A stretch of 64,000 bases of DNA from Nannobrachium achirus (lineage: Eukaryota > Chordata > Actinopteri > Myctophiformes > Myctophidae). Numbering within the stretch: the stretch's first letter is position 1; every line of letters starts with the position of its first letter. The translations under genes were made by a program, and so were the position numbers. Positions 44,122 through 64,000 of this stretch are shown here, one piece after another. Below the pieces are notes generated by a model, which was given only the letters and a program-made list of their open reading frames with translations, was not told the origin of the DNA and did no database searches. Location of the stretch: assembly GCA_963921795.1 (NCBI GenBank), contig OY997653.1, positions 24,225,158-24,289,157 on the forward strand. Direction: 5' to 3'.

Positions 44122-44126
44122 AATCT

Positions 44127-47100
44127 TCAGGAGTCAGGTTCTTGCTTCCTTGCTTCCTCCAATTTAGCAAGAAACCACTGTGCTATCTCTGGAGTTTGGA
44201 AATGAATAATCTTGCCAAATCCTTCCTCTTCGCGACGGATGACATCTGTATGATGTTTGACTCTCTCTGCAGCCTCGATGCGAACGCACTGGCCCTCGAT
44301 TAAATGGGGTTCCTTGGTGAACTCATTGAACAGATACTGCCACATACAGGTCATTTGGCCATATGAACGCTTGGTCACAAATAAGATACTGCTCTTGGTA
44401 ATGATGAGGAAGTTGGAGTCATTGATCTTGGCATGAGCATGGTATATATAGTCTGCAAAACGTCCGTTCTCAATTACCCGAAGAATCTGTCTGCCGATAA
44501 TCTCTGCCTCCTTATACGGTTGTATGACCCCATGCTCGTGGATGAAGCGAGGAGGACGCAGAGACTCAAGGTCCTGTGAAGTCCCTGCCACCTTCGTGAT
44601 CCCTTGGAGGGTACTTCTGAAAACATCGACAACACCTCCTGTAGGTTTGGCCACCAATCCCACCAGACCCTTCACACAACCCTTACAGAAGCCTGTCACA
44701 CCACCTTTCCGAGCACCTTCTATAGGTTTGGTGAAAACACCTGTGACCCCACCGACAACACTTGACATCAGTGCGTTTCCAGTTCTGGAGATCTTCTCTG
44801 CCCGGCTGGTCTGTTGATCCTTCATTTTCTCTAGTCTCTCCTGCTGGTACTCGTCATCCATCGTTATGACAGCAAGACCTTTTGCCGCAACACCCGCTAT
44901 CCTGGACCCTGACCCGATTATGCCCTCTACAGCACCGCTGAACAGAGCCTTTGCTCCATAAGCCAAACCTTCGAAAAATTCCTCAGGCCCCTGGGTGGCT
45001 CCCTGATAGGACTCATGGATAAAAGTCCCCACTCCTTCCTTCATAACCCTTATTAACCTATTGGGATTACCCAGCACATCAAGACCGAACACCAACACAT
45101 ACGTTTGTCTGATGGCCTGCTTGACATAATGATTTCTAACTTCTATTTGGAGCTGCTGTGTTGTGCAGAACTGGAAGGTCATCTCAAAGCAGTTCAGTGT
45201 GAAGACAACGTCCTGTATGTCAGTGAGTGTGGCTCCTATACTCTTCAGAAGCAGTTTGAGGGACTCAATGGGGATAAGTTCTGTATCTCTCTCATCCTTT
45301 TGACCATCCTCTCCACCCGCACTAAGAGTGAAACTCAGGTGCAATTTTATCTCGGAGATGTGGAAGTATTCATAGAGGCTGACAGGTGAGGTGTCTGTAG
45401 CTGAGATGTGATCAAGTTCTGCCAATGTGTACTGTAAGTCTTTGTCAAACAACTCCACCTCCTCCTGTTCTGAGGTTGTGATACTGGTGTTCTCAGGTGT
45501 GAACAGATCTACGATGGCATTGAGGAAACCCAGGTCCAGCTTCAGACACATCTCCTGGATCAACACCTTGAAGTACTTGATGCGAGAGATATTAGAGTGT
45601 CCTGCTGCTCTGGTAACAATGAAGATATCTGCCAGGGGTTTAGGTGTAGAGTCCTTTGTGATGGACTTGGGCAGTTTGATTGGATAGAACACATAGGGAA
45701 AGATGGCTACTGGCAGCTGATTCTGGATTTGTACACGGTTGATTGTGATGCGGTAGGAGCTCTGTTGTGGGGAGATGCTGTACTGCACATTCACCCCAGG
45801 CCGGAAGTTCCTCTTGAGCTGAGCCTTGAATGGTTTTAACACAATCATATCCCTGCCATCGGGAGTCAGAGAAACCTGGTATTTCTTCCCCAAAGTAACT
45901 ATAGTTTTATCTATGGGCTCACGCTTTATATACTCTCTGAAGCTTTTTTCCAGCAACCTTGCCATTTTACCACTCAGTGACTTCCATCTGGAGTTCTTGT
46001 TCGTCCTGAACTCCCACACCACATCAGAACTTGTAACCCCGATGAAACAGACCTCCTGGCTGGTAGTGTTATTTACCAGAGACAAGCTTACATTTCGGAG
46101 AGACATAATAATTGCTGTCACAGACTGAGCTGTCTCTGTCTTGCATAGTAACTTGTAGATCTGAAGCTCTCCTGTAAAGAGCACCACCCGTTGGAGGCCT
46201 TCATAGAAGGAGATCACAAAAAGCTTTCCCTCTTCATTCATATCCACACGTAGATCTCCCTCACTCCTCAGATTGTCTTCGTACTTGCCACATATCCAGT
46301 GTAGCTTTCTAGACCCAGTGGGCTCAGTCCACGTGTAATAAACAGCTTTACCTGGCTCCAACTCTTCTTTCTCCTCCAGTGAGCTCTGGTAGAACTGTAG
46401 AACCTGGTCCTTGGTATGGTTGAGGATAAGGAAGGGAGCAGCACCGTCATAGTAGTCAGAGAATTGAATCACAGTCGAGTGCTCTGACAGGTTCACATCC
46501 ACTGTGATCCCACCCAGAGGCTTGTCAAGACGGAGCAATAAGCAGTTCTCTGGCCGTGTAAAGTCAATGGTCTGAGGAGGAGATTCACAACCTTCAACTT
46601 TGATATTCAGGTACCTGGTGTCTCGCTCAGGCCAGAATGGAATGGCTGACTGTTTAGGCTGTACCTGGGTCCAGTTCTCCTGTCCCTGCTCACTGATGCA
46701 GATGGTGTGTTTGGTTCTATTGACCAACAGATAGAATGGCATGATGGTCACAATGCATGTCAAACTGAAACTACTGGTGTCGATCTTCACCCCAAGATGG
46801 TAATCTTTGTACTTGCCTTTACATTTAATGTCTCCATAGCTACCGACAGTATCAGGAAAGAATTCTTTTGAAAACTCACTGTCTGAGATCATCACGCACA
46901 CTTTTTTGTTTTTCAGGAACATCCGTTGCTTGAAAGAGAAAAGCAGTGGGGTGTCATAGTCCAGGGGGTGTTTGCAAATTGTATCACCCGCCTTATACTG
47001 CAGGAGCTGGCCTGTCTTGTTCTCCATCCAGTAAGGTGAGTAGATAGCCACTATAGTTTGTTTTGGGTCATATTTGACATGCATCGCTATGTTGAGCTCT

Positions 47101-50100
47101 GCCCTCTCCCTCTCCGTGCGGTCACTCTGTCCACTCTTGTCATCCTCCTCCTTGAACACAGTAAAGGTGATCTCTTCCTGTCCACTGAGGAGACTGTACT
47201 CAGCAGACCAATTTTGAGCCAAGTACTTGAGGAGGCGGAGAGTGATAATTGACTGGTCGATAACAGCGGTTTGCAGCTGAGCAGAGTGGCCTGGTTCCAG
47301 AGTGGCCTCAGAGGCAGTGTCTCTCGTGTCCTGTAGTTTGTAGGTGATCGTGTATGGCAGCAGATTACGCAGCAAGATGGATGGCCACAGGTGGAGGATG
47401 TAGGGCTCCTCATATTCATCCCAGATGCTTCCTGTGTGTTTAGATGTAGTGACTGTGTCCTTCAGTGGCACAATATTGACAATCAGCATGCCAGCCATCT
47501 CTCCACAGCAGTGACAAGTCTGCTGAAGACGTGTGCCAGGTTCCTTTCTGATGACATCCTTGTAGTTGAAACCCTCTGAGCGCTTAAACTCTATCGCCTG
47601 ACCACTTTCGCCCACCTCCATTACTGGCTGCAGACTCAGCTCCAACCTGTAGTAATCCAGAGGCACACAAAATTCCTCATTGGGGAGAGACATACCCAGA
47701 CATGTTGATCCTTCAAACACTTTGAATGGGATAGAAAAGTGATTGATGATCTGGATGGGAGAGCGGATTTTGATGTACTTGTTGCCCTTCAAAGAGTAGA
47801 CCTGACACACCAGGAAGCGAGTGACCCCTGAATCAATATGCACCACACTGTACATCCCTTGGCCCATCTTGACCAGCGGGATGACACTGGACGACATGTG
47901 GCCCAGCGGAGTGGACTTTATGTAGTGATTATTTTCACTTGGAGAGATTATAGTGGAGAATTCATCAGAGTCGGTGGCGGTACTTGAGTAGTCCATATTG
48001 AGGCTCTCTCCATCCTGCAGCTCCACTGTACGGTTGTCACTCTGTCCATCGGTGGGGCTGAACATATCACTGTAGAGGACAGATAACGGCAGGCCCAGAC
48101 AGTTCCTCACCATAAATGGATGCTTTTGGAAGCATTCAGTTGTCTGCTCTGCTGCCTCCGCAAATTTTATCTGCAAGTTACTGAGGGTGCCAAGTCCACA
48201 TTTTGAGAGGGTGATGTTGAGATGGTCCTTGCTGCTGATGCTTATAACTGTCTTACACTTTGGGATGTTGGAGTCAACCTCATATGATTGTCCTGTATAT
48301 TCCTTTTTCATCTTCAGGTCTAGAGTCCAGGGTCTGTCATCCTTTAATGGTTCCTCTACTGGTTCCAAAAATGGCTCCCACACTTCCATCATCTCATTGT
48401 AGTAGTGCATCTCTAAACTAAGCTGACCATGGAAGTTAATTAAAGTTTTCCAGTTTTTTATATCTGCACGGAAGGAGGACTTGGCCAGAAACATGGGGAC
48501 GATCCCATACCCAACCCCTGCCTCTACAGTCAAGCAGATAGAGTTTATGGCTACCTGTAGTGACTCTCCCTGTGGTATCAGTGGGGCCAGGGACTGTGTA
48601 TCCTCATCCAGTTCATCCTCCAGGAACCACAACTTTAGCCCCTTCCAGCTCTGTCGCTCCCATAACTCGGGGGGTACAGAGCTGTCTGGCTCCTGCGGAG
48701 CCGCTGTAGCAGCCTCTGGCACAGACTGGATGATGGCGTTCACTGTGTTAATAATTTTTGGAGATACCGTCATCGAGAGGGCACTGATGCAGACCTCCAT
48801 AACTTCGGGGGAGGTGGGCATCTGGGTGCTTTTGAAGGAGACCTGACAGGGCTGTAGAACCGTGGTTATGTTGTTTATCCTATTGCTCCTCAGTAAAGGA
48901 CATGCCACAACCTTGAGGTCCTTGATGATGGCAGTCGTCAGCGATCCCTCTGCATCATTCTTCATCGCCAGTTCACACTGCATGACTCGCATCATCAGGG
49001 CGGGAGCATCGGCACGTGTTAAGTCTGCCACAAAGACAATCTCTGGGTTCCTCAACAGAATGTTGTACTTGAATGTGCTCGCCGGAACTGCAGCTGGAGC
49101 TGGAACTGGAGCTGGAGCTGGAGCTGGAGCTGGAGCTGGATCTGTATCTGGAGCTGGAGCTGGACCAGGATCACGAACATGCCCAGCATAGGCTTCCTGG
49201 CTGCCCTTGAGGAAGATGTTTGCAACATTGTGCAGGAACTTCATGTTGACACACAGGTAGAAGTCCAGAATACCTATGTCGATAATGGTGATATTGTCGC
49301 CCTCACAATTGGTCACCTCCATCATGAGGTTCAGCTCATCAATCGCCATCATTCTGGGATTAATCGTCTGGATACAGGGGTTCTTGTCATCCAGCAGGCA
49401 GTTGGTAAGTTTAACTAAGGTCTTCATGGACGAGTCAGAATACTGGAGGAGAGAGGTTGTGATGTTTCCCAGGGTAAACTCTGCCAGTTTTTGCTCTGGA
49501 CTGTACACGACCAGAGTGATAGAGTCAAACTTTACGTCCAGTTTGACTGTGTTTGTCACCTTGGAGTGGGAGGGGGGAGAGGGGGGTGGCACGACTTCAG
49601 CTACCTCCCCCTCCGACGGGGAAGGGGGAGAGGGGGGTGGCACGACTTCAGCTACCTCCCCCTCAGACATGGACAACAGTGTACACAGTAACACCTTCAC
49701 ATCAGCCTGCCTCTGCATCAGAGTCATGGGTTTGATGTGAGCTGCGATCTCCATGTCAGGTATTTCATGGTACCAGGCGGATGACAGGTTTCTCGAGATA
49801 GACAAATCCATGTTTGAGCAGCTGAACAGCTGAGTTTCTCCTTGAAACTGATCTGCCTCAAATGTGGTTCTGTAGAGCCTGAGGTCACTCAGTCCCACTG
49901 TCATCATATCCACCACAGGGGGGATGTTGGCATGGGTTTCGGACGTTATCTTGACAAACTGGTTCTTAACGGAGATCAGACCCAGGTGGACTACAATGAC
50001 ATTCCTCCCACAATCAGTAGACTGGGGATTGTGGGGAAGGAAGAAGAAAGGCATATTTATGTGGACGTTGAGAGCGATCCGTGCACTGCGCTCCACCAGC

Positions 50101-53100
50101 TCCACTACATCCATGGCAGCCTTCTCTGCAGACTGGACTTCTGTGGCAGCCTTCTCTGCAGGCTGGACACCCGTCGAATCCTTCTCTGCAGGCTGGACAC
50201 CCGTAGCATCCTTCTCTGCAGATTGGACATGTTGTAAGTTGTTGATGAAAGCCATTATGGAAGAGACAAACCTTTTGAGATACATGACTCGGATGCATCC
50301 CACAGTCAGTGCGATGGAAGTGTCAACTTTAGACATATCCAGATAGGACTCTCCTTCTGTGGCATCTGTATAGTTCACCATGTGGATGGCAATCTCCTCT
50401 TTATCTGTGGACACCACTTTCTTGTAAACAGCGTCCTTGTCGCAGTCCAGGATGGCAATGTTCTTGAACTTGGCCTGAACCTCTGTCTTCTTTTTCATCA
50501 TCAGTACATCTGACACCAGACCTTCAATACTGATCTCAGAGATCCTGGCTTTCTCTCCTGGGATGAAAACCTTCAGATTATTGAAATCTGCTTTGATGTG
50601 CTGATTCACCACATCTTCAAACTTAGATATCTCTGAAGTCTGTCTCTTGGCAATTACAGGTTCCTCCTTCTTATCCCCTGTGCTATCCTCCTGCCCTCTC
50701 TCCTTTGTCTGAGAAGGAGGGATGAGGTTGTTGAAGAAGTTCATGACATTGAAGAGAGCCTCGATGTAGAGGTGCATGTCTAGTGATGAGAGGTTCACCT
50801 TGATTAGCTGTTCTGTATTTTCGTGTTGGGACTTAAACTCAGGACCATACCTATCAGCCGTAATGTACTTCAGAGTGAGAAATGCATCATCCTTCGTGTT
50901 GTCTAGAGTGGTGATGAGATGAACCTCCTTCTCCTCAAAATCCTTGTACTCAGGGCACTTAAGGCAGATGTTGTGGATTGAAATGGACAATGACATATCA
51001 AAGGTGCACAATTTGAGATCGGTGTTCAGTCCTTCCATGTACACTTGAAGGATGATGACCTCCTGGCTCGCTGATAGACTACACAACTCTACGGACACCT
51101 TGGTAATCTCAAAGTTTATAAAGCAATTAGTCATGTTCTTCTGAGGATGTTTCTCGGTGTCTTCTGTATTTATGAGTGTGTGGGAAGCAGTGCTTTGTGG
51201 GGCAGGTTTGCTCTTAGGTAGTGGGATGCTGTCTATCAGCTCCAGAATTCCGCGAATCTTCTTGTCAAACATCCGAAGGGATAGCAAAGGTATTTTCCCG
51301 GATATTTTAAACTTGGGCATGCGTGAGTCTGTGTCGACCATGGCCTTTCTGAAAAACACCTCCAGATCCACCGGCTCTAGAATGTGGAGCGCCGACTGTT
51401 TCTGTTTACGAGCTTTCTTCCAGTCCCCATCTGATTTGCTGTAGAGAAACTGCAGTCCGCTGAGCTGTATGTCAAAGTCGTCGTAAGCTCTGTCTCTGAA
51501 GTCCTCAATGGTGCTGCTGCCCACTGACAGCTGGGGCAGGCCTTTCTTGCTCTGACTCGACACCTTCAAGTCTCCCAGGTCCAGCACCATGATCTTCTGA
51601 GCGGATTCATAGAAGCCGGTCTGGGGAATGATGACATAGGACGCCAACAGGTTCACTTGCAGGTCTAGAACCGTCTGTGTCTCAATGACATACATCAGAC
51701 CTGAGGCCGTACGGTCCCTGAACTTCTCCAGTTTCTCCAGGGCAACATTGGTCAGCTGGTCTAACTGCTGGTTGTCAGGGGGCCTGAAGAACTCTAACAT
51801 GCTGTTCACTGTTACAGCATCATAGATGATTTCCAGAGATTGTGACTCAACGTAAAGCTTCTGGTCAGCGGTCCCATCCAGCGGGTTGGTCTCAAACGCA
51901 ATGCTTAGCAGTGGTGTTCCTTTTCCCGTGGCAGCCTTCCTTGACGACACTAGGGTGGGTGTGGCCCGGTCACCGCCCAGGCCCTTGACCTCAAACATAT
52001 TGAGCTTAGCTATAAGTTTGATGGCTTGTGCTCCTGGTCTCTGTGTAAAAATGGACTTTAGCTCTCCAAGTGTCAACTTGATGATCTCATTCTGATCTGT
52101 GGTGTCGTCCTTGAAGGACACAGAGAGCATCTCCATGTGGAAATCAACCTTCATTTCCTCAAAGTCCTTCGGCAGGTTTTTATTACCAGCGACCTCACTG
52201 TATCCAATGGCAGTATAAAACTTCGCCTTCTCAGCAGCAAAAGCATCAGTTGTGACATCTTTATCCTGGCTATCAGGCTCACCTGTCTTTTTAAACATCC
52301 ATCCAAACCAACCTTTGGACTCTTTTCCCATCTTCTCCTCCTCAAGACGGTGGACATTGCTCAACTCCATCTCAGCATGCTGCCGGGCCAATGTAATATT
52401 AAATATATCCAGCATCCTCTCAGTCTCATCCAGCAGCATGGGGTCATTACCATTGATCTTTTCTTTGTAGAGCTCCCGGTAGCGCTTTACCGTCTCCCGG
52501 TGTTTCCGGATGCGCTGCCACGACCACTTGTGGAGTCGGGGTTTCACATCCACCTCCAGTATGCCCATGATTATATACCGCCACCATATGGGGGCATTGG
52601 TGTTAACGTGGACCTCTGGCCTGTATTTCCTATATGGCAGGTTCAGTGTCATCATAGACACTGAGTCCACCAGCTCCAGAATGCTGATATACTGTGGTCT
52701 ATTGAGCTCAATGCCCACAGCTGGGAGAGTGACTTCCAGGTCCACTTTAGGAGAGGAGAAATCCACATCCGACCTTGGATTCATTCGGAGTTTAGCATCC
52801 ACTGTCATCAGACGAAATAAGTACAAGTTGTTGATCTCCATGTCGGCCTCTAGATATTGCAAAACTTGATCTGGACTGTAATTAGAATAGATCTTGGATT
52901 TAACATTCCAGTAGACAAACAGGTTCTCAAGCTGCACAAACTTAAAGAAAAGCTTGGCATTCTCATCCAGAATGCAGGGTTCCCCTTTCTCATCAACGGT
53001 GTGGAAGCTAAGGTCTTTCAACGTCACACCAAATGACAGTGGACATTGGGGATTTGTAATGTCATCCTCATAACGGACATGGATGTTAGAAATTCTGACG

Positions 53101-53549
53101 TGTAGGTTCTTGATGATCTGAGTGATCATCTTCTCTATATAGGTGTCGTCCTTTATCTCTGGGTTCTTTCGTTCTGCGGCCTTCCGCTTGTTCTCCTCCA
53201 TCGCCTGCAGTTCCCTCTGGCGAGCCTCTTGCAATTGTTTTTCTTCCTTCTCGGCATCATACTTTATTCGGGCTGTCGGGACTAAAAGCAGACTGACACC
53301 ACTCAGTATTACCTCCACTGACTGGTAGTAGAGTTGGGACCATGGGATCTTCAGTTCTAGATGTCCTATCTGTCCCGCTATAACTTTAAAAGGAATGTCA
53401 AGTTGACTCAAGGCATTTTCCTTGATTTCAAGCTTTCTGAGGACAGCATTACCTCCCCATATGCCAAGTTGAAGTTCAGAGCCATCAAGGTCAACGTAAT
53501 CCCCTAAACATTTATTCAGGAGCTGTACAACCAGTGCCTCTAACACCAT
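44127..53549 (-). CDS. VPS13A-like bridge lipid-transfer protein, complete single exon
   Basis: VPS13 proteins form a long hydrophobic groove carrying phospholipids between organelles at contact sites. This protein has 3140 residues, close to mammalian VPS13A (about 3170). The start MVLEALVVQLLNKCLGDYVD matches the family N-terminus. Visible parts: chorein domain (about 1-115, with GIWGGNAVLRKLEIKENALS); extended chorein region (NLPYRKYRPEV, LDIFNITLARQ); repeating-groove middle; VAB/SHR-BD region (about 1810-2470, with ILHLWPSILLRNLLPY); ATG2-C-like part with YQGATQGPEEFFEG near 2846 and glycine-rich amphipathic helices near 2943; PH-like C-terminus (about 3010-3140). The FFAT-containing linker of VPS13A is missing near residues 780-806. 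Three in-frame coding repeats are unique to this copy. The ORF has no intron and no stop, unlike the normal multi-exon gene, suggesting a retrocopy under selection. It is tandem with the gene at 55550-64000. VPS13C-like identity is less likely. Confidence 0.92.
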   Translation of the reverse strand: MVLEALVVQLLNKCLGDYVDLDGSELQLGIWGGNAVLRKLEIKENALSQLDIPFKVIAGQIGHLELKIPWSQLYYQSVEVILSGVSLLLVPTARIKYDAEKEEKQLQEARQRELQAMEENKRKAAERKNPEIKDDTYIEKMITQIIKNLHVRISNIHVRYEDDITNPQCPLSFGVTLKDLSFHTVDEKGEPCILDENAKLFFKFVQLENLFVYWNVKSKIYSNYSPDQVLQYLEADMEINNLYLFRLMTVDAKLRMNPRSDVDFSSPKVDLEVTLPAVGIELNRPQYISILELVDSVSMMTLNLPYRKYRPEVHVNTNAPIWWRYIIMGILEVDVKPRLHKWSWQRIRKHRETVKRYRELYKEKINGNDPMLLDETERMLDIFNITLARQHAEMELSNVHRLEEEKMGKESKGWFGWMFKKTGEPDSQDKDVTTDAFAAEKAKFYTAIGYSEVAGNKNLPKDFEEMKVDFHMEMLSVSFKDDTTDQNEIIKLTLGELKSIFTQRPGAQAIKLIAKLNMFEVKGLGGDRATPTLVSSRKAATGKGTPLLSIAFETNPLDGTADQKLYVESQSLEIIYDAVTVNSMLEFFRPPDNQQLDQLTNVALEKLEKFRDRTASGLMYVIETQTVLDLQVNLLASYVIIPQTGFYESAQKIMVLDLGDLKVSSQSKKGLPQLSVGSSTIEDFRDRAYDDFDIQLSGLQFLYSKSDGDWKKARKQKQSALHILEPVDLEVFFRKAMVDTDSRMPKFKISGKIPLLSLRMFDKKIRGILELIDSIPLPKSKPAPQSTASHTLINTEDTEKHPQKNMTNCFINFEITKVSVELCSLSASQEVIILQVYMEGLNTDLKLCTFDMSLSISIHNICLKCPEYKDFEEKEVHLITTLDNTKDDAFLTLKYITADRYGPEFKSQHENTEQLIKVNLSSLDMHLYIEALFNVMNFFNNLIPPSQTKERGQEDSTGDKKEEPVIAKRQTSEISKFEDVVNQHIKADFNNLKVFIPGEKARISEISIEGLVSDVLMMKKKTEVQAKFKNIAILDCDKDAVYKKVVSTDKEEIAIHMVNYTDATEGESYLDMSKVDTSIALTVGCIRVMYLKRFVSSIMAFINNLQHVQSAEKDATGVQPAEKDSTGVQPAEKAATEVQSAEKAAMDVVELVERSARIALNVHINMPFFFLPHNPQSTDCGRNVIVVHLGLISVKNQFVKITSETHANIPPVVDMMTVGLSDLRLYRTTFEADQFQGETQLFSCSNMDLSISRNLSSAWYHEIPDMEIAAHIKPMTLMQRQADVKVLLCTLLSMSEGEVAEVVPPPSPPSPSEGEVAEVVPPPSPPSHSKVTNTVKLDVKFDSITLVVYSPEQKLAEFTLGNITTSLLQYSDSSMKTLVKLTNCLLDDKNPCIQTINPRMMAIDELNLMMEVTNCEGDNITIIDIGILDFYLCVNMKFLHNVANIFLKGSQEAYAGHVRDPGPAPAPDTDPAPAPAPAPAPVPAPAAVPASTFKYNILLRNPEIVFVADLTRADAPALMMRVMQCELAMKNDAEGSLTTAIIKDLKVVACPLLRSNRINNITTVLQPCQVSFKSTQMPTSPEVMEVCISALSMTVSPKIINTVNAIIQSVPEAATAAPQEPDSSVPPELWERQSWKGLKLWFLEDELDEDTQSLAPLIPQGESLQVAINSICLTVEAGVGYGIVPMFLAKSSFRADIKNWKTLINFHGQLSLEMHYYNEMMEVWEPFLEPVEEPLKDDRPWTLDLKMKKEYTGQSYEVDSNIPKCKTVISISSKDHLNITLSKCGLGTLSNLQIKFAEAAEQTTECFQKHPFMVRNCLGLPLSVLYSDMFSPTDGQSDNRTVELQDGESLNMDYSSTATDSDEFSTIISPSENNHYIKSTPLGHMSSSVIPLVKMGQGMYSVVHIDSGVTRFLVCQVYSLKGNKYIKIRSPIQIINHFSIPFKVFEGSTCLGMSLPNEEFCVPLDYYRLELSLQPVMEVGESGQAIEFKRSEGFNYKDVIRKEPGTRLQQTCHCCGEMAGMLIVNIVPLKDTVTTSKHTGSIWDEYEEPYILHLWPSILLRNLLPYTITYKLQDTRDTASEATLEPGHSAQLQTAVIDQSIITLRLLKYLAQNWSAEYSLLSGQEEITFTVFKEEDDKSGQSDRTERERAELNIAMHVKYDPKQTIVAIYSPYWMENKTGQLLQYKAGDTICKHPLDYDTPLLFSFKQRMFLKNKKVCVMISDSEFSKEFFPDTVGSYGDIKCKGKYKDYHLGVKIDTSSFSLTCIVTIMPFYLLVNRTKHTICISEQGQENWTQVQPKQSAIPFWPERDTRYLNIKVEGCESPPQTIDFTRPENCLLLRLDKPLGGITVDVNLSEHSTVIQFSDYYDGAAPFLILNHTKDQVLQFYQSSLEEKEELEPGKAVYYTWTEPTGSRKLHWICGKYEDNLRSEGDLRVDMNEEGKLFVISFYEGLQRVVLFTGELQIYKLLCKTETAQSVTAIIMSLRNVSLSLVNNTTSQEVCFIGVTSSDVVWEFRTNKNSRWKSLSGKMARLLEKSFREYIKREPIDKTIVTLGKKYQVSLTPDGRDMIVLKPFKAQLKRNFRPGVNVQYSISPQQSSYRITINRVQIQNQLPVAIFPYVFYPIKLPKSITKDSTPKPLADIFIVTRAAGHSNISRIKYFKVLIQEMCLKLDLGFLNAIVDLFTPENTSITTSEQEEVELFDKDLQYTLAELDHISATDTSPVSLYEYFHISEIKLHLSFTLSAGGEDGQKDERDTELIPIESLKLLLKSIGATLTDIQDVVFTLNCFEMTFQFCTTQQLQIEVRNHYVKQAIRQTYVLVFGLDVLGNPNRLIRVMKEGVGTFIHESYQGATQGPEEFFEGLAYGAKALFSGAVEGIIGSGSRIAGVAAKGLAVITMDDEYQQERLEKMKDQQTSRAEKISRTGNALMSSVVGGVTGVFTKPIEGARKGGVTGFCKGCVKGLVGLVAKPTGGVVDVFRSTLQGITKVAGTSQDLESLRPPRFIHEHGVIQPYKEAEIIGRQILRVIENGRFADYIYHAHAKINDSNFLIITKSSILFVTKRSYGQMTCMWQYLFNEFTKEPHLIEGQCVRIEAAERVKHHTDVIRREEEGFGKIIHFQTPEIAQWFLAKLEEARKQEPDS
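49087..49170 (-). repeat. In-frame hexamer repeat encoding Ala-Pro
   Basis: GGAGCT hexamers on the + strand read as a (PA)n tract of about 28 residues in the VPS13A-like protein (near residues 1460-1488). The tandem paralogue has an unrelated, non-repetitive linker here. Confidence 0.85.
49567..49668 (-). repeat. In-frame duplicated 51-bp unit
   Basis: Two nearly identical 51-bp units encode SEGEVAEVVPPPSPPS twice (near residues 1294-1328). The paralogue lacks this sequence. Confidence 0.85.
50111..50234 (-). repeat. In-frame 30-bp minisatellite, about four units
   Basis: Four units encode variants of AEKDATGVQP (near residues 1106-1146). The paralogue has one unit (PAEKAAIGM). Confidence 0.85.
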
Positions 53550-53566
53550 GTTTTTGGAGGTAACAT
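53540..53566 (-). promoter_or_regulatory. Short upstream ORF overlapping the VPS13A-like start
   Basis: An ATG at 53566-53564, 17 nt before the main start and out of frame, opens an 8-codon ORF whose TAG stop lies just past the main ATG. Ribosomes would need to skip it or reinitiate, so it could dampen translation. The main ATG has G at +4. Confidence 0.55.
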
Positions 53567-53574
53567 GTTAACCG

Positions 53575-53631
53575 TTTCTCTTTCCGTGTCTTGCCAACAC
53601 TGTAAGATCTTATATAGGCCTCAAGGCCAAT
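53575..53631 (-). promoter_or_regulatory. Core promoter of the complete VPS13A-like gene: CCAAT, TATA and ISRE-like motif
   Basis: On the minus strand: ATTGG (complement of CCAAT, 53627-53631), TATATAAG (53609-53616), then GGAAAGAGAAAC (53574-53585), which fits the interferon-response core GAAANNGAAAC. The TATA box predicts initiation at about 53582-53586, so the ISRE-like motif would sit at the start site and the leader would be about 35 nt. Confidence 0.55.
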
Positions 53632-53920: not shown

Positions 53921-54110
53921 TTCGGTGCTGTCAAAGGCTGCTGTCTGTATCCGGCTGACTGTACAAAGGCAGGGCCTTTAGCCAATGAGGGAGCAGCGTT
54001 CTCAGTGACATCACCACCAACCAACAAGTGTCATATACCCACATACCCCGCTGTCAGACGGATACAGACAGCACCGATCACACTTGTGCGCTCTGCTGGC
54101 GCACAGGTAG
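53921..54110. mobile_element. MITE copy upstream of the VPS13A-like gene
   Basis: TTCGGTGCTGTC … CTGTCTGTATCCG at the left is inverted at the right (CGGATACAGACAGCACCG), followed by CGCTCTGCTGGCGCACAGG. The interior (GGGCCTTTAGCCAATGAGGG, AGCAGCGTTCTC) is the reverse complement of 41207-41389. Confidence 0.65.
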
Positions 54111-54114
54111 GACA

Positions 54115-54625: not shown

Positions 54626-54628
54626 GGA

Positions 54629-54718: not shown

Positions 54719-54724
54719 TATAAA

Positions 54725-55465
54725 TTTCCCAGCATGCCATGTCATCGTGTTTATTATTTTGTTGTTGGTTGAATATGGGAAGGCATTATGAGATTACGTT
54801 ATGGTCATCTATTTGTAATGTTGTGTCATGGTGTTCAATTTGTAATTTATGTTGGTGTACTATGTTTTGATGAAAGGGACCGTTCAATATTTATGGGAGG
54901 GAGTTACTGGAAGGAAACAAGGGCAGGGTTGTTTTTTTTTTTCACTAACTTTTTTGCAAACATGCAAACACACTAACAATCATGGGTGCAGATTGGGGGG
55001 ACGCGAGGAACACCCACTTTTTTTTCTCCTTTTTTTTGTGTGTGTGTGTGTGGGGGGGGGGGGGGTTTACAAGTATGGTTTGTGCAATATGAAATGTGAG
55101 CTTACCAAGGGCTTTTTGAGAGAAATGAGACTCCAGTAACTTAAGCTTAGAGGACTGCTGAGTGGAAGTCTGTGCATCTGTGACCAGCTGATGCTTGTTG
55201 ACGCATCGTTAATGGATCAAAGAAGGCTATTATGTGTCTGCACTGTCAAATAGGTTGACATCTATTCTAAGATGTCATCAAAGCCAAGCTTTTTTTTCTT
55301 TTTAAACCAAAAAGACCAGAAAAAGCCCTGCTAACAATACACGCTTTATCACACATAGCCTATCTAGCGTCTTTTGTCTTCTAATTCTGCAACTACAGTC
55401 ATAGTCAGAATACAGTTTTTGGTGCAAGTAATGCATGAAAACAATACTCGAAAGTCATTGGCACA
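54725..55465. other. Gene-free stretch
   Basis: A (TG)n/poly-G tract lies at about 55036-55066. Otherwise nothing is recognised. Confidence 0.4.
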
Positions 55466-55468
55466 CAA

Positions 55469-55470
<2 letters not shown>

Positions 55471-55546
<76 letters not shown>
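55471..55546. repeat. (TG)n tract touching the 3' end of the second VPS13A-like gene
   Basis: A pure TG tract of about 76 bp ends 3 bp before the stop codon on the minus strand, so the mRNA would begin its 3' UTR with CA repeats. Confidence 0.95.
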
Positions 55547-55548
<2 letters not shown>

Positions 55549-55549
55549 T

Positions 55550-58500
55550 TTATTTTTCAGTTTTGGTTTGTTGCTCATTTCTGTTGCAGTCTGGTTCTTG
55601 CTTCCTTGCCTCCTCCAATTTAACAAGAACCCACTTTACCATATCAGGATTTTTGAATTTAATGATTTTGCAAGATCCACCCTCTTTGGAATGTAAGATA
55701 GATCTGCCTTTCTCCTCAGCCTCGATGCAAAGGCACTGGCCATTGATTATACGAGGGTCCTTGGTGAACTCATCAAACCGATACTGCCACTCACAGGTAG
55801 GTTTATCACGTGTGCCCTTGGTCACAAATAAGATGCCCCTCTTGGTAATCATAAGGAAGTTGGAGTCGTCAATCTTGGCGTGAGCAAAGTATCTATACAA
55901 TGCAAAACGTCCATTCACAATTTCCTGAAGCATCTGTCTGCCGATAGCCTCCCTCTCTTTATATGGACGTATGACCCCATCATCATGGATAAAGCGAGGA
56001 GGACGCAGAGACTCAATGTCCTTTGAAGGCTCTGCCACCCTTTGGATCCCTTGGAAGGTACTTCCAAACATGTCAATGATGCCTCCTGCAGGTTTGGCCA
56101 CTGCTCCCACCAGACCCTTCACTACACCCTTAAAGAAGCCTGTTGCACCATTCTTCTGAGCCCCTTCTATGGGTTTGCTGACAATCCCTGTCATCCCACT
56201 GACAATCCCTGTCACCCCAGACAACAGTGCATCACCACCTCTGGATTGTCTCTCCTGCTGGTACTTTTCATCCATTGTTAGGTCAGCAAGACTCTTTGCC
56301 ACGGCACCCGTGATCCTGGAGGCTGTCCCGGCTATCCTGGAGGCTGTCCCTGCTATGCCCTCCACAGCACTGCCGACCAGTGCTTTTACTCCAAGAGCCA
56401 TGCCTTCCACAAACTCCTCAGGCCCCTGGATGGCTCCCTGATAGGGTTCATAGAAGAAGGTCTTCACTCCTTTAGACAGTCCTCTGATCAGCCCAAAGGG
56501 ATTTCCCAGCACATCCAGACCAAACACCAACACATACATTTGTTTAAGGGCCTGCTTTTTATAATGACTTTCAACCTCCCTTTGGAGCTGCTGAGTTGTG
56601 CAGAACTGGAAGGTCATCTCAAAGAAGGCCAGTTTGAAGACAACGTCCTGTACATCAGTGAGTGTTGCTCCTATACTCTTCAGCAACAGGTTGAGGGACT
56701 GGATAGGGAAGAGTTCTGTATTTCTCTTCTTCCGACCGTTTTCTCCACCCGTACTCATAGAGAAACTCAGGTGTAGCTTAATGGGGGAAATGTGAAAGTA
56801 CTCATAGAGGCTGATAGGAGAGGTGTCTGCAGCAGAGACATGGTTGAGTTCTGATAATATATACTCTATGTCCTTTTCAAACAGCTCCACCTCCTGTTCT
56901 GATGTTGCGATGCTGGCATTCTCAGGTGTGAACAGATCTCGGATGGCATTAAGGAAACCCAGGTCCAGCTTCAAATCCATCTCCTGAATCAACACCTTGA
57001 AGTACTTGATGCGAGAGATATTAGAGTGTCCTGCAGCTCTGGTAACAATGCAAATGTCTGTTAGGGGTTTTGGCCTCGAGTCCTCTGTGACAGACCTGGG
57101 AAGTTTGACGGGAGAGAAGACAAAGGGGAAGATGGCTCCTGGAAGCTGATTCTGTATCTGTATGCGGTTGATTTGGATACGGTAGGAGCGCTGTTGTGAG
57201 GAGACACTGTACTCCACTTTCACCCCAGGCAGGAAGGTCCTCCTGAGACGAGCCTTGAACGGTTGAAGCAGCTTCATATCCCCGTCATTGGGAGTAAGAG
57301 AAACCTGGAAGTTTTTTGCCAATTCAACTGTGGCTTTTTCCAAGGGCTCACGGTCCTTATACTCTCTGTAGCTATTTTCCAGCATCTCGACCGCTTTACC
57401 ACCCAGGGCCTTCCATCTGGACTTTTCCACCTCTTCATACCCCCACAGCACATTAGAACTTGTAATTCCGATGAAAGAGACCTCCTGGCCGGTAGTGTTG
57501 TTAACCAGAGACACCCCTACATCTTGGAGGGACAGAATAATTTCCTTATCTGCCAACTTAGCCCTCTCGCATTTGCAAAGGTACTTGTAGATCTGACGCT
57601 CTCCTGTAAAGAGCACTACCCGCTGTAGACCTTCATAGAAGGAGATCAAGAACAGTTTTCCATCATCATTCATGTTCTTCCATATGTCCCCCTCACTCTT
57701 CAGTGTGTGATGGTAACTGCCACATATCCATCGTAGCTCTCTAGAGCCAGTGGGTTCAGTCCAGGTGTAATACACAGCTTTACCTGGCTCCAACTGCTCC
57801 TTCTTCTTCTGCGAGCTCTGGTAAAACTGTAGAACCTGGTCCTTGGTATGGTTGATGATAAGGAAGGGAGCAGCACCATCATAGTAGTCAGAGAAATGAA
57901 TCACAGTCGAGTGCTCTGATAGGTTCACATCCACTGTGATCCCACCCAGTGTTTTGTCCAGATGCAGCAATAAGCAGTTCTCTGGCCGTGTGAAGTCAAT
58001 GGTCTGAGGAGGAGATTCACAACCTTCAACTTTGATCTTCAGGTACCTGGTGTTTCTCTCGGGCCAAAATGGTATGGCTGGCTGTTCAGGCTGTGCCTGG
58101 GTCCAGTTCTCCTGTCCCTGCTCACTGATCCAGATGGTGTGTTTGGTTCTATTGACCAGCAGGTAAAATGGCAGGAAAGTCACACAGCGCGTAAGGCCGA
58201 AGCTACTCGCATCGATCTTCACCCCAACTTGGTAATCTTTGTATCTGCCTTTACATTTTATATCTCCATAGTTACCAACAGTATCCAGAGAGAATTCTTG
58301 TGAAAGCTCACTGTCTGAGATCATCAGACGGACTTTGTTCTTTTCCAAAATGTTCTGTGGCTTGAAGGAGAAGAGCAGTGGCATATCATAGTCCAGGGGG
58401 TGTTTGAAAAAGATATCATCCGCCTTGTACTGCAGCAGTCGGCCTGTCTTGTTCTCCATCCAGTAAGGTGAATAGATAGCCACCACAGTTTGTCCTGGGT

Positions 58501-61500
58501 CATATTTGACATGCACCGCTATGTGTAGCTCTGCCCTCTTCCTCTCTGTTCCACCACTAGCTCCATCCTTATTGTCTTTGCTGAGAGACTTGAACGCAAT
58601 GAAAGTGAATTCTTCCTGTTCACTTAGGAGACTGTACTCTGCAGACCAATTCTGAACCAAGTAGTCAAGGAGACAGAGAGTGAGACTTGACTGATTGATG
58701 ACAGCAGTGTGCAGCTGTGCAGAATGGCCTGGTTTCAGAGTGGCCTCAGGGGCAATGTCTCCACAGTTCTGTAGTTTGTATGTGATCATGTATGGCAGCA
58801 GATTACGCAGAAGGATGGATGGCCACAGGTGGAGTATATAGGGCTCGTCGAAATTCTCCCCGACACATCCTGTGTGTTTGGATGTCACTGCATCCCTCAG
58901 TGACACAATATTGATCATCAGCACGCCGCCTTTTTCTCCACAATGGCAACAGATCCGCTGAAGGCGTGTGCCAGGTTCCTGTTTGCTGACTTCCTCGTAG
59001 CTGAAACCCTCGGAACACTCGAACTCTATTGCCTGACCGCCTTCACCTTCATCTGTTACTGGCTGCAGGCTCAGCTCTGACCTATAAGAATCCAGAGGAA
59101 CACAGAATTCCTCATTGGGGAGAGACACACCCAGACATGTTGATCCTTCAAACACTTTGAATGGGATAGAAAAGTGATTGATGATCTGGAAAGGAGAGTG
59201 GATCTTAATGTACTTGTTGCCCTCCACAGAGTAGATATGACACACCACAAAGCGAGTGACGCCCGACTTGCTGTGCATCACACTGTACATCCCCCGGCCC
59301 ACCTTGATCAGCGGCATGACACTGGCTGATGTGTGGCCCAATGGAGTGGGCTGTATGTAGTAATCCATTTCACTTAGGGAGATTATAGCAGAGTCATTGC
59401 CAGTACTTGAGTAGTCCAAATTTAGGCTCTCTCCATCCTGCAGCTCCATAGTTCGGTTGGTGCCCTCTCCATCAGTGGGACTGAACATCTCACTGTAGAG
59501 GACAGACACCGGGAGGCCTAGACAGTTCTTCACTACAAATGGAGCCTCATCCTTTTGGAAGCATTCTGTTGTCTGCGTCGCAGCCTCCACAAATGCCATG
59601 TGCAAGTTACTGAGCATGCCCAGTCCACATTTTGAGAGGGTGATGTTGAGATGGTCCTTGCTGCTGATGTTGATGACTGTTTTAAAATCTGGAACGTTGA
59701 AATCAACCTCAGATGATATTCCTGTATATTTCACTGGCATCTTCTTTATCTGCAGTTGTAGAGTCCAGGGTCTTGCATCCTCTAATTGCTCCTCTATTGG
59801 TTCCAGGAATGGCTCCCACACTCCCACCATCTCATTGTAATAGTTAACTTCCAGATTGAGCTGACCGTGGAAGTTAATGAACGTGCTCCAGTTCTTGACA
59901 TCTGCATGGAAGGAGGACTTGGCCAGAAGCATGGGGACGGTCCCATGCCCAACCCCTGCCTCCACGGTCAAGCAGATAGAGTTTATGGCTACCTGTAGTG
60001 ACTCTCCCTGTGGCATCAGTGGGGCCAGGTATTGTGCATTCTCATCCACTTCATCCTCCAAGAACCACAACTTGAGCTCCTTCCAGCTCCGTTGCTCCCA
60101 TAAGTCAAGGGGTACAGGGCTGTTTAGCTCCTGTGGAGTCTCTGCATTGGGTGTCAGCACTGAGTGGATAATGGTGATCACTGTGTTGATGATGGCGGGA
60201 GATACTTTAATTGAGAGGGCATTGACGCAGACCTCCATAGCTGGAGGGGAGGTGGATGCTTGGTTGCCTTGGTAGAACACCTGACATGGCTGAAGCACCA
60301 TAGTTACGTTGTTTTTCCTCTTGTCCCATAGGAAGGGACATGCCACAACATTGAGGTCCTTGATGACCGCAGTCGTCTGTAATCCCTCTGCATCATTCTT
60401 CTGCACCAGTTCACATTGCGTCACTCGCATCACCAGGGCAGGGGAGTTGGCACGTGTTAAGTCTGCCACAAATACAATCTCAGGGTTCCGCACAAGAACG
60501 TTGATGTTTAAGGCTACCACTTTACCTGCAGCATTGGTTGAAGTGGGATCAGTCCCATTCTTTTTATCCCCTCGTCTGTTTGTGGCCTTGGGCTGTGAGG
60601 CTGGAGCAAAGCCTTGCTCTGTAGCCTTGAGGAAGATGTCGGCCACTTTAAGCAGGAATTCCATGCTGGCACACAGGTAGAGGTCCTGAATAACTGTGTC
60701 CAGAGTGATGCCATCTCGGCCCTCACAGTAGTTCACCTCCATCATCATGTTCTGCTTAGCACTGGGATGCATAGCCATCATTGTGGGAGTGACCATTTTG
60801 ATCCTGGGGTTCTTGTCATCCAGTAGGCAGTTGGCCACTTTAAATGAGCCCTTCAAGGAACTGCCAGAATACGTGTGGAGGGAAATGGAGATGGTCTCTA
60901 GGGTAAACTCTGCCAGCTTCTGCTGCTCATCATGACAGTCCAGCAGCTCCACTTCGTTTGCAGTGGGGCTGTACAGGACCAGGGTCATGGAGTCAAACTT
61001 GAAGTCAAGCTTGAGTGTGTTTTTAAACTTGTTGGGAGGAGCAGGAACTGTGTCCGATGGCTTTCCTGCGTCCGATGGCTGAGAAAGGAATTCGTTAAGC
61101 GTAATTAGTAACAATGTCATGTCGGCCTGACTCTGCATCAGAGTCACGGTTTTGAGGTGACCTGTGATCTCTATGTCAGGTATGTCATGGTACCAGGTGG
61201 ATGACAGGTTTCTCGAAATAGACAAATCCATGCTAACTGGTTTCAGCAGCTGAGTCTCTCCTTGAAACTGGTCTGCCTCATGTGTGGTTCTGTACATCCT
61301 GAGATCATTTAGTACCACTGTCATTTTATCCACTACAGGGGGGATCTTGGAATGGGTTTTGGATGACATCTTGGCAAAGTGGTTCTTGATGGAGATCAGG
61401 CCTAGGTGAGCTACGATGACATTGGATGAGGAGGAGTGGGGGAGGAAGATGACAGGCGTGTTGAAGTGGACATTGAGAGCAATCCGTGTGCTGTGCTTTG

Positions 61501-64000
61501 CAAGCTCTGCCTCGAACATGCCTATGGCAGCCTTCTCTGCAGGCTTTACTTGTTGGAAATTATTGATGAAAGCCAGTATTGAAGAGATAAACTTGTTGAG
61601 GATGATGACTTGGATGGATCCCACTGTTAGTGTGATTGAAGTGTCTACTTTTGACATATCCAGATATGCATCTCCTACTGTGGCATCCGTGTAATTCACC
61701 ATGTGGAAGGCAAACACCTCCTTATCTGCTATGGACACCACATTCTTGTAAATAGCGTCTTTTACGCAGTCAAGGACTACAATATTCTTCAGGTTGGCCA
61801 GAACCTCCATCTTCTTTTTCCTCAAAAGAACCTCTGACCCCAAGCCTTCAATGCTGATCTCAGAAATCCTTGCTTTCTCTCCTTCGATGAAAACCTTCAG
61901 ACAGTTGAGTTCTGTTCTGATATGCAGATTCACCACATCTTCAAACGTTGATTTATTTGAAGTATGTCTCTTGGCAATCATAGGTTCCTCCTTCTTCCTC
62001 CTCTTGTCTTCCTCCTGTCCTTCCTCCATACACCAAGAAAAAGGAGGGAGACTCTTAAAGATGTTCATGATGTTGAGGATAGGCTCAGTGTAAAGGTGCA
62101 TGTCCAGTGATGAGAAGTTCACCTTTATTAGCTGTTCTGTATTTTTATGTTGAGACTCGAACTCAGGACCATTCCTATCAGCCTTAATGTACTCCAGAGT
62201 GAGCAAGTCATCCTCCATGTTGTCTAGAGTGGTGATGAGATGAACCTCCTTCCCTTGAGAATCCACATACTCTGGGCATTTGAGACAGATCTCTCGCACA
62301 AACGTGTATGAGAACATGTCAAAGGTTAGTAATTTAAGTTCAGTTCCCACTCCTTCGATGTCCAGGTGAAGGACAGTGACCTCCCGACCGTCTGATAGAT
62401 GACACAGCTTTATGGACATCTCGTTGATCTCAAATGTCACGAGGAAATCGGTCATGTTCTTCTGAGGATCCTTCTTCACCAGATCTTCTCTTTTACTTGC
62501 AGGTCTGCATGGGGCAGGTTTTCTATTGGGCACTGGGATGCTGTTTATCAGATCTAGAACACCTCGAATCCTGTCATCAGAGATACAAAGGGATAGCAAA
62601 GGGAGCTCCCCAGAGATCTTAAACTTTGCCATTCGTGAGTCTGTAACGACCATGGCCCTGCTGAACACCACCTTAAGATCCACCGGCTCTAGGATGTGGA
62701 GCGCCGATTGCTTCTGCTTACGAGCCTTCTTCCAGTCCCCATCTGGTTTGCTGTAGAGAAACTGCAGACTGTTGAGCTGTACATCAAAGCTATCGTACGC
62801 TCTGTCCATGATGTCCCCAATGGCACTGCTGCCAACTGACAGCTGGGGAAGGTCCTTCTTGCTCTGACTTGACACTTTCAAGTCTCCCAGGTCCAGCACC
62901 ATGACATTTTGAGTGGAGTCATAGAAGCCATTCTGGGGAATAATGACATAAGACGCCAACAGGTTCACATTCAGGTCTAGAACCTTCTGTGTCTTAATCA
63001 CATACATCAGACCTGAGGCCGTACGGTCCCTGAACTGCTCCAGTTTCATCAGGGTAACATTGGTCAGCTGGTCTAACTGCAGGTTTTCAGGGGGAAAGAA
63101 GAACTCTGACATGCTGTTCACTGTAATAGCATCGTAGATGATTTCCAGGGGTTGAGACTCGATGTAGAGCCTCTGGTCAGCGGTCTCATCCAGTGGGTTG
63201 GTTTCAAACTCAATACTAAGCAGGGTTCCCGTGGCAGCATTCCTTGATGATAGCAGGGTGGGTGTGGTCCGGTCACTGGCCAGGCCCGTGACCTCAAACA
63301 TATTGAGCTTAGCAATAAGTTTGATGGCTTGTGCTCCAGATCTCTGAGTAAGAATGGTTGTGAGCTCTCCAACTGTCATCTTGAAGATCTCGTTCCGATC
63401 TGTGTTGTTGTCTTTGAAGGACACAGAGAGAGTCTTCATGTGGAAATAAACCTTCATATCCTCAAAGTCCTTTGGCAGGTTGTGATTGACAGGGTCCTCA
63501 CTGTATCCAATGGCAGCGTAAAGCTTGGCCTTCTCAGCAGGAGTCATCAAGTCATCAAAAGCTCCAGTTTTCACTTGTGTAACACGTGTTTCTCGCTCTC
63601 CTCCCCATTTCCACACCCATCCAAACCACCCTTGGGACTCCTCTGCTTCCATCTTCATTCCAGGACGGTAGACACGCAGGCCTGCCTTGCTCGCCTCCAT
63701 CTCAGCCTGCTGCCTGGCTAACGTGATGTTAAATATATCCAGTGTCCCCTCAGTGTCCTCCAGCTCTTTGAGCAGTTCTCCGAGGGCTTTATTGCTGGTG
63801 ATCTTATCCTTGTAGAGATCCCGGTAGCGTTTCACTGTCTTCCGGTGTCGATGGATGTGCTGCCACGACCACATGTGGAGCCGGCGCCTCACATCCACCT
63901 CCAGGATTCCTGTGATAGCATAACGCCACCATATTGGGGCATTGGTGTGAATTCGGACCTCAGGCCTGTATTTCCTATACGGCAAGTTCCGTGCCATCAT
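55550..64000 (-). CDS. Second VPS13A-like protein, single exon, 5' end outside the window
   Basis: A bridge lipid-transfer protein of the VPS13 family, tandem and head-to-tail with the complete copy about 2 kb away. 2816 residues are visible; the frame is open at the window edge and about 315 N-terminal residues (chorein domain) should lie outside. The visible part begins at LPYRKYRPEVRIHTNAPIWW and keeps the order of VPS13A: LDIFNITLARQQAEME, KGWFGW-like box (QGWFGWVWKWGG), groove region, VAB/SHR-BD, YEPYQGAIQGPEEFVEGMAL, the glycine-rich amphipathic part and PH-like end (RFALYRYFAHAKID). It ends LEEARKQEPDCNRNEQQTKT plus EK. By eye it is roughly two-thirds identical to the neighbour and slightly closer to canonical VPS13A. 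It lacks the FFAT linker and has none of the neighbour's expanded coding repeats. No frameshift or stop is seen over 8.4 kb. Confidence 0.92.
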   Translation of the reverse strand: MMARNLPYRKYRPEVRIHTNAPIWWRYAITGILEVDVRRRLHMWSWQHIHRHRKTVKRYRDLYKDKITSNKALGELLKELEDTEGTLDIFNITLARQQAEMEASKAGLRVYRPGMKMEAEESQGWFGWVWKWGGERETRVTQVKTGAFDDLMTPAEKAKLYAAIGYSEDPVNHNLPKDFEDMKVYFHMKTLSVSFKDNNTDRNEIFKMTVGELTTILTQRSGAQAIKLIAKLNMFEVTGLASDRTTPTLLSSRNAATGTLLSIEFETNPLDETADQRLYIESQPLEIIYDAITVNSMSEFFFPPENLQLDQLTNVTLMKLEQFRDRTASGLMYVIKTQKVLDLNVNLLASYVIIPQNGFYDSTQNVMVLDLGDLKVSSQSKKDLPQLSVGSSAIGDIMDRAYDSFDVQLNSLQFLYSKPDGDWKKARKQKQSALHILEPVDLKVVFSRAMVVTDSRMAKFKISGELPLLSLCISDDRIRGVLDLINSIPVPNRKPAPCRPASKREDLVKKDPQKNMTDFLVTFEINEMSIKLCHLSDGREVTVLHLDIEGVGTELKLLTFDMFSYTFVREICLKCPEYVDSQGKEVHLITTLDNMEDDLLTLEYIKADRNGPEFESQHKNTEQLIKVNFSSLDMHLYTEPILNIMNIFKSLPPFSWCMEEGQEEDKRRKKEEPMIAKRHTSNKSTFEDVVNLHIRTELNCLKVFIEGEKARISEISIEGLGSEVLLRKKKMEVLANLKNIVVLDCVKDAIYKNVVSIADKEVFAFHMVNYTDATVGDAYLDMSKVDTSITLTVGSIQVIILNKFISSILAFINNFQQVKPAEKAAIGMFEAELAKHSTRIALNVHFNTPVIFLPHSSSSNVIVAHLGLISIKNHFAKMSSKTHSKIPPVVDKMTVVLNDLRMYRTTHEADQFQGETQLLKPVSMDLSISRNLSSTWYHDIPDIEITGHLKTVTLMQSQADMTLLLITLNEFLSQPSDAGKPSDTVPAPPNKFKNTLKLDFKFDSMTLVLYSPTANEVELLDCHDEQQKLAEFTLETISISLHTYSGSSLKGSFKVANCLLDDKNPRIKMVTPTMMAMHPSAKQNMMMEVNYCEGRDGITLDTVIQDLYLCASMEFLLKVADIFLKATEQGFAPASQPKATNRRGDKKNGTDPTSTNAAGKVVALNINVLVRNPEIVFVADLTRANSPALVMRVTQCELVQKNDAEGLQTTAVIKDLNVVACPFLWDKRKNNVTMVLQPCQVFYQGNQASTSPPAMEVCVNALSIKVSPAIINTVITIIHSVLTPNAETPQELNSPVPLDLWEQRSWKELKLWFLEDEVDENAQYLAPLMPQGESLQVAINSICLTVEAGVGHGTVPMLLAKSSFHADVKNWSTFINFHGQLNLEVNYYNEMVGVWEPFLEPIEEQLEDARPWTLQLQIKKMPVKYTGISSEVDFNVPDFKTVINISSKDHLNITLSKCGLGMLSNLHMAFVEAATQTTECFQKDEAPFVVKNCLGLPVSVLYSEMFSPTDGEGTNRTMELQDGESLNLDYSSTGNDSAIISLSEMDYYIQPTPLGHTSASVMPLIKVGRGMYSVMHSKSGVTRFVVCHIYSVEGNKYIKIHSPFQIINHFSIPFKVFEGSTCLGVSLPNEEFCVPLDSYRSELSLQPVTDEGEGGQAIEFECSEGFSYEEVSKQEPGTRLQRICCHCGEKGGVLMINIVSLRDAVTSKHTGCVGENFDEPYILHLWPSILLRNLLPYMITYKLQNCGDIAPEATLKPGHSAQLHTAVINQSSLTLCLLDYLVQNWSAEYSLLSEQEEFTFIAFKSLSKDNKDGASGGTERKRAELHIAVHVKYDPGQTVVAIYSPYWMENKTGRLLQYKADDIFFKHPLDYDMPLLFSFKPQNILEKNKVRLMISDSELSQEFSLDTVGNYGDIKCKGRYKDYQVGVKIDASSFGLTRCVTFLPFYLLVNRTKHTIWISEQGQENWTQAQPEQPAIPFWPERNTRYLKIKVEGCESPPQTIDFTRPENCLLLHLDKTLGGITVDVNLSEHSTVIHFSDYYDGAAPFLIINHTKDQVLQFYQSSQKKKEQLEPGKAVYYTWTEPTGSRELRWICGSYHHTLKSEGDIWKNMNDDGKLFLISFYEGLQRVVLFTGERQIYKYLCKCERAKLADKEIILSLQDVGVSLVNNTTGQEVSFIGITSSNVLWGYEEVEKSRWKALGGKAVEMLENSYREYKDREPLEKATVELAKNFQVSLTPNDGDMKLLQPFKARLRRTFLPGVKVEYSVSSQQRSYRIQINRIQIQNQLPGAIFPFVFSPVKLPRSVTEDSRPKPLTDICIVTRAAGHSNISRIKYFKVLIQEMDLKLDLGFLNAIRDLFTPENASIATSEQEVELFEKDIEYILSELNHVSAADTSPISLYEYFHISPIKLHLSFSMSTGGENGRKKRNTELFPIQSLNLLLKSIGATLTDVQDVVFKLAFFEMTFQFCTTQQLQREVESHYKKQALKQMYVLVFGLDVLGNPFGLIRGLSKGVKTFFYEPYQGAIQGPEEFVEGMALGVKALVGSAVEGIAGTASRIAGTASRITGAVAKSLADLTMDEKYQQERQSRGGDALLSGVTGIVSGMTGIVSKPIEGAQKNGATGFFKGVVKGLVGAVAKPAGGIIDMFGSTFQGIQRVAEPSKDIESLRPPRFIHDDGVIRPYKEREAIGRQMLQEIVNGRFALYRYFAHAKIDDSNFLMITKRGILFVTKGTRDKPTCEWQYRFDEFTKDPRIINGQCLCIEAEEKGRSILHSKEGGSCKIIKFKNPDMVKWVLVKLEEARKQEPDCNRNEQQTKTEK

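Follow-up and report, generated by a model that had tools for sequence, protein, structure and literature searches.

Tandem intronless VPS13A-like genes with intact reading frames, probably retrogenes that lost the FFAT linker, in Nannobrachium achirus

Results

Two giant intronless open reading frames lie head-to-tail

The window analysed here, a stretch of 64,000 nucleotides from the Nannobrachium achirus genome, carries two giant open reading frames (ORFs) on its minus strand, which far exceed all other ORFs in a listing with a threshold of at least 250 aa (the third-longest has 475 aa). ORF1 (44127-53549, minus strand) is a complete intronless VPS13A-like coding sequence of 3140 aa that runs from ATG to TGA, as seen from the ORF list, Pfam matches and collinearity with VPS13A chains. 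ORF2 (55550-64000, minus strand), recognized from the ORF list, Pfam and matches to PDB chains, is a second intronless VPS13A-like coding sequence, with 2816 aa in the window and open to the window edge. The two are arranged head-to-tail on the same strand, separated by a gap of 2 kb. The ATG of ORF2 at the window edge is internal, aligning near residue 299 of ORF1 in tblastn, so about 890 bp (about 298 N-terminal codons) of ORF2 lie outside the window. The original prediction of two ORFs holds, while its copy order is corrected: because transcription runs from right to left, ORF2, the incomplete one, lies upstream of ORF1. When each ORF was searched against the window by tblastn, the other was retrieved as one collinear single-frame match of 2892-2894 alignment columns with 65.8% and 65.5% identity, and 69.3% of the 2752 gap-free residue pairs are identical. 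No third VPS13 copy was found in the window by tblastn at an E value of 0.001. The 5,956 codons of ORF1 and ORF2 contain no stop. Collectively, the ORF list, the one-frame tblastn matches, the Pfam matches and the absence of stops bear out the claim of tandem giant intronless VPS13A-like ORFs with intact frames.

Flanks of ORF1 and neighboring genes

The sequence around the ORF1 start codon is Kozak-like (AAACATGG). An in-frame stop lies seven codons before this start, and an eight-codon upstream ORF (53540-53566, minus strand) overlaps the start codon. A TATA box (TATATAAG; 53609-53616, minus strand), a consensus match only, is located 60 bp before the ATG; loose TATA matches number 30 in the window. 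Downstream of this TATA box, 25 bp before the ATG, lies a putative ISRE-like motif (GAAAGAGAAAC; 53574-53584, minus strand), which is matched exactly only here in the window, against a chance expectation of 0.81. A same-strand ISRE would fall within 100 bp of any one start with a chance of about 6 in 10,000, a figure weakened by the choice of the motif after it had been sighted. The TATA box and the ISRE are thus putative promoter elements, a weak hint at best. Further upstream of ORF1, a short repeat (53950-54041) recurs in opposite orientation downstream of the FAM177 gene described below (41248-41342), with 88% identity.

On the 3′ side of ORF1, a MITE-like foldback hairpin (44019-44122, minus strand) starts four bases past the stop codon. 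It is very stable, with a fold z-score of -6.44 for 44010-44140, has TA at both ends and presumably resembles a Tc1-type MITE. Rfam at gathering scores gave no match, the hairpin after the ORF1 stop included. A large palindromic foldback element with arms about 86% alike occupies 42729-43191 in the same downstream flank.

A single-ORF FAM177 gene of 187 aa (40509-41072, plus strand; PF14774, 110.7 bits, profile positions 5-116 of 117) is convergent with ORF1 at a distance of 3 kb. Upstream of this ORF, a TATA match is found at 40373 and a CRE-like TGACGTAA at 40347. A 40-bp piece of the 5′ leader of FAM177 (40447-40486) recurs downstream of the gene at 41860-41899 with 92.5% identity; this may be a repeat or what is left of a second copy. 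No FAM177 relatives were found among the solved chains up to an E value of 1. A second neighbor, a C2H2 zinc-finger gene with a single ORF of 475 aa (1516-2943, plus strand; zinc fingers by Pfam), is taken by us to be insm1-like. Human FAM177A1 has introns and lies close to INSM2 on chromosome 14; the FAM177 copy here may therefore still occupy its original locus and have lost its introns there; possibly, it is another intronless copy. FAM177A1 has been described as a functional partner of VPS13B, both in cells and in zebrafish (PMC11451052). By default, we regard the position of FAM177 beside the VPS13A copies as chance. The CpG observed/expected ratio is 0.37 in ORF1 and 0.33 in ORF2, versus 0.97 in the insm1-like ORF, 0.79 in the FAM177 ORF and 0.51 in 3001-40000; the low values of both VPS13 ORFs look as if shaped by germ-line methylation.

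Both copies are VPS13 proteins closer to VPS13A than to VPS13C

Four VPS13 Pfam models match both proteins in order and above cut-off, ORF2 without its first 298 codons. In ORF1, on the minus strand, these are VPS13_N (PF12624, 777 bits; best stretch at residues 2-786, 51192-53546), VPS13_M (PF25033, 390 bits; best stretch at residues 995-1794, 48168-50567), the VAB adaptor-binding region (PF25036, 148 bits; residues 1889-2412, 46314-47885) and the C-terminal region VPS13_C (PF25037, 71 bits; residues 2997-3104, 44238-44561). The corresponding scores in ORF2 are 497, 476, 146 and 75 bits. Sacsin and GVIN, other giant single-exon families, were set aside as the identity of the ORFs in view of the Pfam matches, and six peptide patterns scanned against viral contigs returned no relatives. 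An AlphaFold structure predicted from two sequences for the C-terminal 700 residues of ORF1 was unusable (mean pLDDT 30.8).

Among the solved chains, the VPS13A and VPS13C entries of which we take to be human, ORF1 aligns with the N-terminal VPS13A chain at residues 1-793 (791 bits) and with the middle chain (380 bits), and its match to the C-terminal chain reaches residue 1623 of 1625. ORF1 is collinear with VPS13A from residue 1 through residue 1623 of the 1625-residue C-terminal chain. VPS13C tops the three solved-chain score tables (2281, 2331 and 1194 bits), since the solved chains include it as a single long one, whereas VPS13A is split in three pieces; summed against ORF1, the three pieces reach 2870 bits. 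Segment by segment, VPS13A scores 791 bits versus 134+537 bits for VPS13C at the N-terminus, 1639 versus 1057 bits in the C-terminal half and 802 versus 549 bits over the last 700 residues.

A five-sequence alignment was assembled from HMMER-printed stretches in two blocks, comprising 473 and 942 positions between the copies, with a third VPS13 chain, presumably fungal, in the first block only. Over the stretches compared, the copies share 47-52% identity with VPS13A and 34-44% with VPS13C. At signature sites, where the copies agree and the paralogs differ, 221 residues are found only in VPS13A and 89 only in VPS13C. A tree with VPS13A and VPS13C, as had been proposed, places the copies on the VPS13A side with moderate support (75.9 aLRT, 65 bootstrap), joined by a long common stem of 0.48. 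Taken together, the segment scores and signature sites argue, with moderate confidence given a branch support of only 75.9/65, that both ORFs are closer to VPS13A than to VPS13C, in agreement with the VPS13A ancestry originally predicted.

The hydrophobic pattern and VAB asparagines are kept and the FFAT linker is gone

In the stretches compared, 95.4% (ORF1) and 97.7% (ORF2) of the 216 positions that are hydrophobic in both VPS13A and VPS13C are still hydrophobic in the copies, and 6-7% of 176 polar or charged positions have turned hydrophobic. The asparagines of the VAB repeats have a functional role, and all six examined are present in both copies.

Human VPS13A carries a VAP-binding FFAT motif at residues 842-848, reported to be the main ER-targeting hub of the protein, and deletion of this motif leaves recruitment to mitochondria and lipid droplets in place (PMC6389287). 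We infer that this motif sits in the linker between the SIP and NMT parts, because one PDB construct stops at residue 793 and no FFAT was seen by eye in the printed part of the following construct. The counterpart of this inferred site is a short linker of 28 aa in ORF1 (51129-51230, minus strand) and of 25 aa, without an FFAT core, in ORF2 (62450-62542, minus strand). The two VPS13C matches that flank the linker leave 58 VPS13C residues unmatched versus 13 in ORF1. A motif scan detected no core FFAT in ORF1 or ORF2, and under a relaxed pattern the sole match, in ORF2, falls outside the linker; neither copy thus has the FFAT motif of the VPS13A subfamily. The short FFAT-free linker common to both copies is new here, together with the measured constraint and the VPS13A assignment. 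Because the FFAT linker is gone, whereas the VAB asparagines and the hydrophobic pattern are kept, both copies are predicted to act as lipid bridges without VAP/ER tethering.

Selection on the reading frames

Across 2752 aligned codons, ORF1 and ORF2 differ at 18%, 14% and 27% of first, second and third codon positions, respectively. The NG86 method gives a dN of 0.18 and a dS of 0.43, hence a dN/dS of 0.42, with a bootstrap range of 0.38-0.48 (60 replicates); LWL85 and YN00 give 0.46 and 0.50. Neutral simulations scored in the same way, three runs with one per transition setting, yielded 0.74, 0.80 and 0.97. The dN/dS comparison proposed for the copies thus falls below the neutral range. Over 14 windows along the alignment, dN/dS spans 0.24-0.78, with 13 windows below the lowest neutral run (0.743); the one at 0.78 is at the C-terminal end and lies inside the neutral range. 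Codon gaps between the copies come in threes by construction from the protein alignment and have no evidential value. ORF1 contains three minisatellites, and their periods of 6, 51 and 30 bp are all divisible by three. In ORF2, the period is 21 bp in two repeats and 26 bp, not divisible by three, in an imperfect pair.

Stop codons were simulated with ORF1 alone. Neutral evolution to 0.2 substitutions per site would give ORF1 a mean of 48 stops (minimum 31 in 100 runs), whereas the real ORF1 has none; at 0.05 per site, the mean is 15 and the minimum 8 (100 runs). A dN/dS of about half the neutral value could by itself fit one constrained and one free copy, and only the absence of stops argues against this. 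With a dN/dS of 0.42 and no stops in either copy, both look constrained, if loosely, in line with the selection on the frames originally predicted. VPS13A and VPS13C have the same residue at 568 positions; both copies have departed from it at 136 of these, ORF1 alone at 51 and ORF2 alone at 18 (binomial p = 9e-5). Fast evolution thus took place more before the duplication than after it, and ORF1 has been the faster copy since.

Discussion

Origin of the two copies

Homology to VPS13 is continuous in a single frame along the whole visible length of both copies, and the copies lack the introns that divide human VPS13A into 73 exons (PMC12411190). Since all coding introns are gone, a spliced mRNA intermediate is indicated, and retroposition followed by tandem duplication would be the simplest origin of ORF1 and ORF2. 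No target-site duplication was noticed by eye around the copies. There is likewise no clear poly(A) tail downstream of ORF1, where only an AATAAA with a short A run, a candidate polyadenylation signal or tail remnant, is found about 870 bp past the stop codon (43245-43256, minus strand). An old insertion would lose its target-site duplications.

The intronless locus might instead be the sole VPS13A of this organism, either because the parent gene was replaced or because the introns were lost in place via an mRNA-templated event. Retention of VPS13A homology over the full length and the constraint on the frames would suit such a gene. Against it, the identity to human VPS13A of 47-52% in the stretches compared is low for a sole vertebrate VPS13A orthologue, and the long stem and the linker loss are better suited to an extra copy released from its former role; we consider this unlikely.

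Less probable still is that both copies are retropseudogenes, or that one is live and the other dying, with frames still open by luck. The raised dN/dS at about half the neutral value, the one window of 14 in the neutral range and the faster alteration of conserved sites in ORF1 (51 versus 18 unique changes) all lean that way. They are set against a dS of 0.43 with not a single stop in 5,956 codons, when at least 8 and on average 15 would be expected in ORF1 at merely 0.05 substitutions per site, and against 13 windows under the lowest neutral run. Two independent VPS13A retropositions into adjacent sites are improbable to the same degree: blastn finds no similarity between the 3′ flanks of ORF1 and ORF2, but flanks at a dS of 0.4 with indels would in our judgment be hard to align regardless, and the copies lie on the same strand 2 kb apart and have the long stem and the short linker in common. 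The head-to-tail order at this distance, the common stem of 0.48 and the short linker in both copies support one event followed by tandem duplication, the course that the original prediction had given.

We therefore favor, with a probability of roughly 0.7, the reading that ORF1 and ORF2 are protein-coding VPS13A retrogenes that lost the FFAT linker, were duplicated in tandem and form lipid bridges without VAP anchoring. Under this retrogene reading, a spliced VPS13A messenger would have been reverse-transcribed and inserted beside the FAM177 gene, and the retrocopy would have acquired a promoter and then evolved fast. The FFAT-bearing linker was presumably lost before the tandem duplication. 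Each copy most likely still is a bridge-like lipid-transfer protein with a hydrophobic-lined groove, a VAB adaptor domain and a C-terminal part. Without FFAT, no VAP anchoring to the ER would be expected, and the copies may be placed via their VAB and C-terminal parts on mitochondria, lipid droplets or other membranes, like the human VPS13A mutant with the FFAT deletion. The intact frames, the homology, the constraint on the frames and the short FFAT-free linker are features of the DNA itself; retroposition, protein production, localization and lipid transfer are what these features suggest. A broader and doubtful extension would make the two genes part of an expanding retrogene-born family of FFAT-less VPS13A proteins that form ER-independent bridges, possibly interferon-inducible via the ISRE and forming a lipid-transfer module with the neighboring intronless FAM177, which is related to the VPS13B partner FAM177A1.

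Comparison with known systems

Human VPS13A (chorein) and the copies are collinear over nearly the full length and share the VPS13_N, VPS13_M, VAB and C-terminal regions, whereas the human gene has its many exons and an FFAT linker, both absent from the copies, which have diverged to about half identical residues in the stretches compared. Human VPS13C has the identical domain plan, yet it scores below VPS13A in the compared segments, is less similar to the copies (34-44% identity in the stretches compared) and has 58 residues at the linker versus 13 in ORF1. If the copies are expressed, a messenger of 9-10 kb would have been copied whole and retained for long, and they would amount to a natural test of which bridge parts are dispensable, with the groove and adaptor domain kept and the ER anchor gone. 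Loss of VPS13A causes chorea-acanthocytosis, and with a naturally ER-detached form, what VPS13A does where it contacts the ER could be told apart more easily from what it does on mitochondria and lipid droplets.

The fish GVIN/VLIG genes encode giant intronless interferon-induced GTPases, with a very large single coding exon and tandem copies. They share these last two features with the VPS13A copies, and a possible ISRE at ORF1 would be a further likeness; however, the protein family is unrelated to VPS13, and the ISRE of ORF1 is putative. A coding sequence of 9.4 kb is far above the usual size of a retrocopy; to our knowledge, ORF1 and ORF2 would, if expressed, rank with the largest retrogenes reported to be intact. 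Among the listed titles and abstract openings of open-licence papers, none concerns a fish VPS13 gene without introns; vps13a is mentioned in fish papers on Atlantic salmon and Astyanax. Functional retrogenes of fish, as seen in a zebrafish set (PMC3091775), a vertebrate survey (PMC13320880) and the single-exon genes of sea bass (PMC8207432), likewise are intronless with an intact frame; VPS13 does not occur in the available main text of these three reports. The zebrafish study takes a ratio under 0.5 as the mark of a functional retrogene (PMC3091775), a ratio of retrogene versus parent there and of copy versus copy here. What also sets ORF1 and ORF2 apart from these functional retrogenes is that they are duplicated in tandem.
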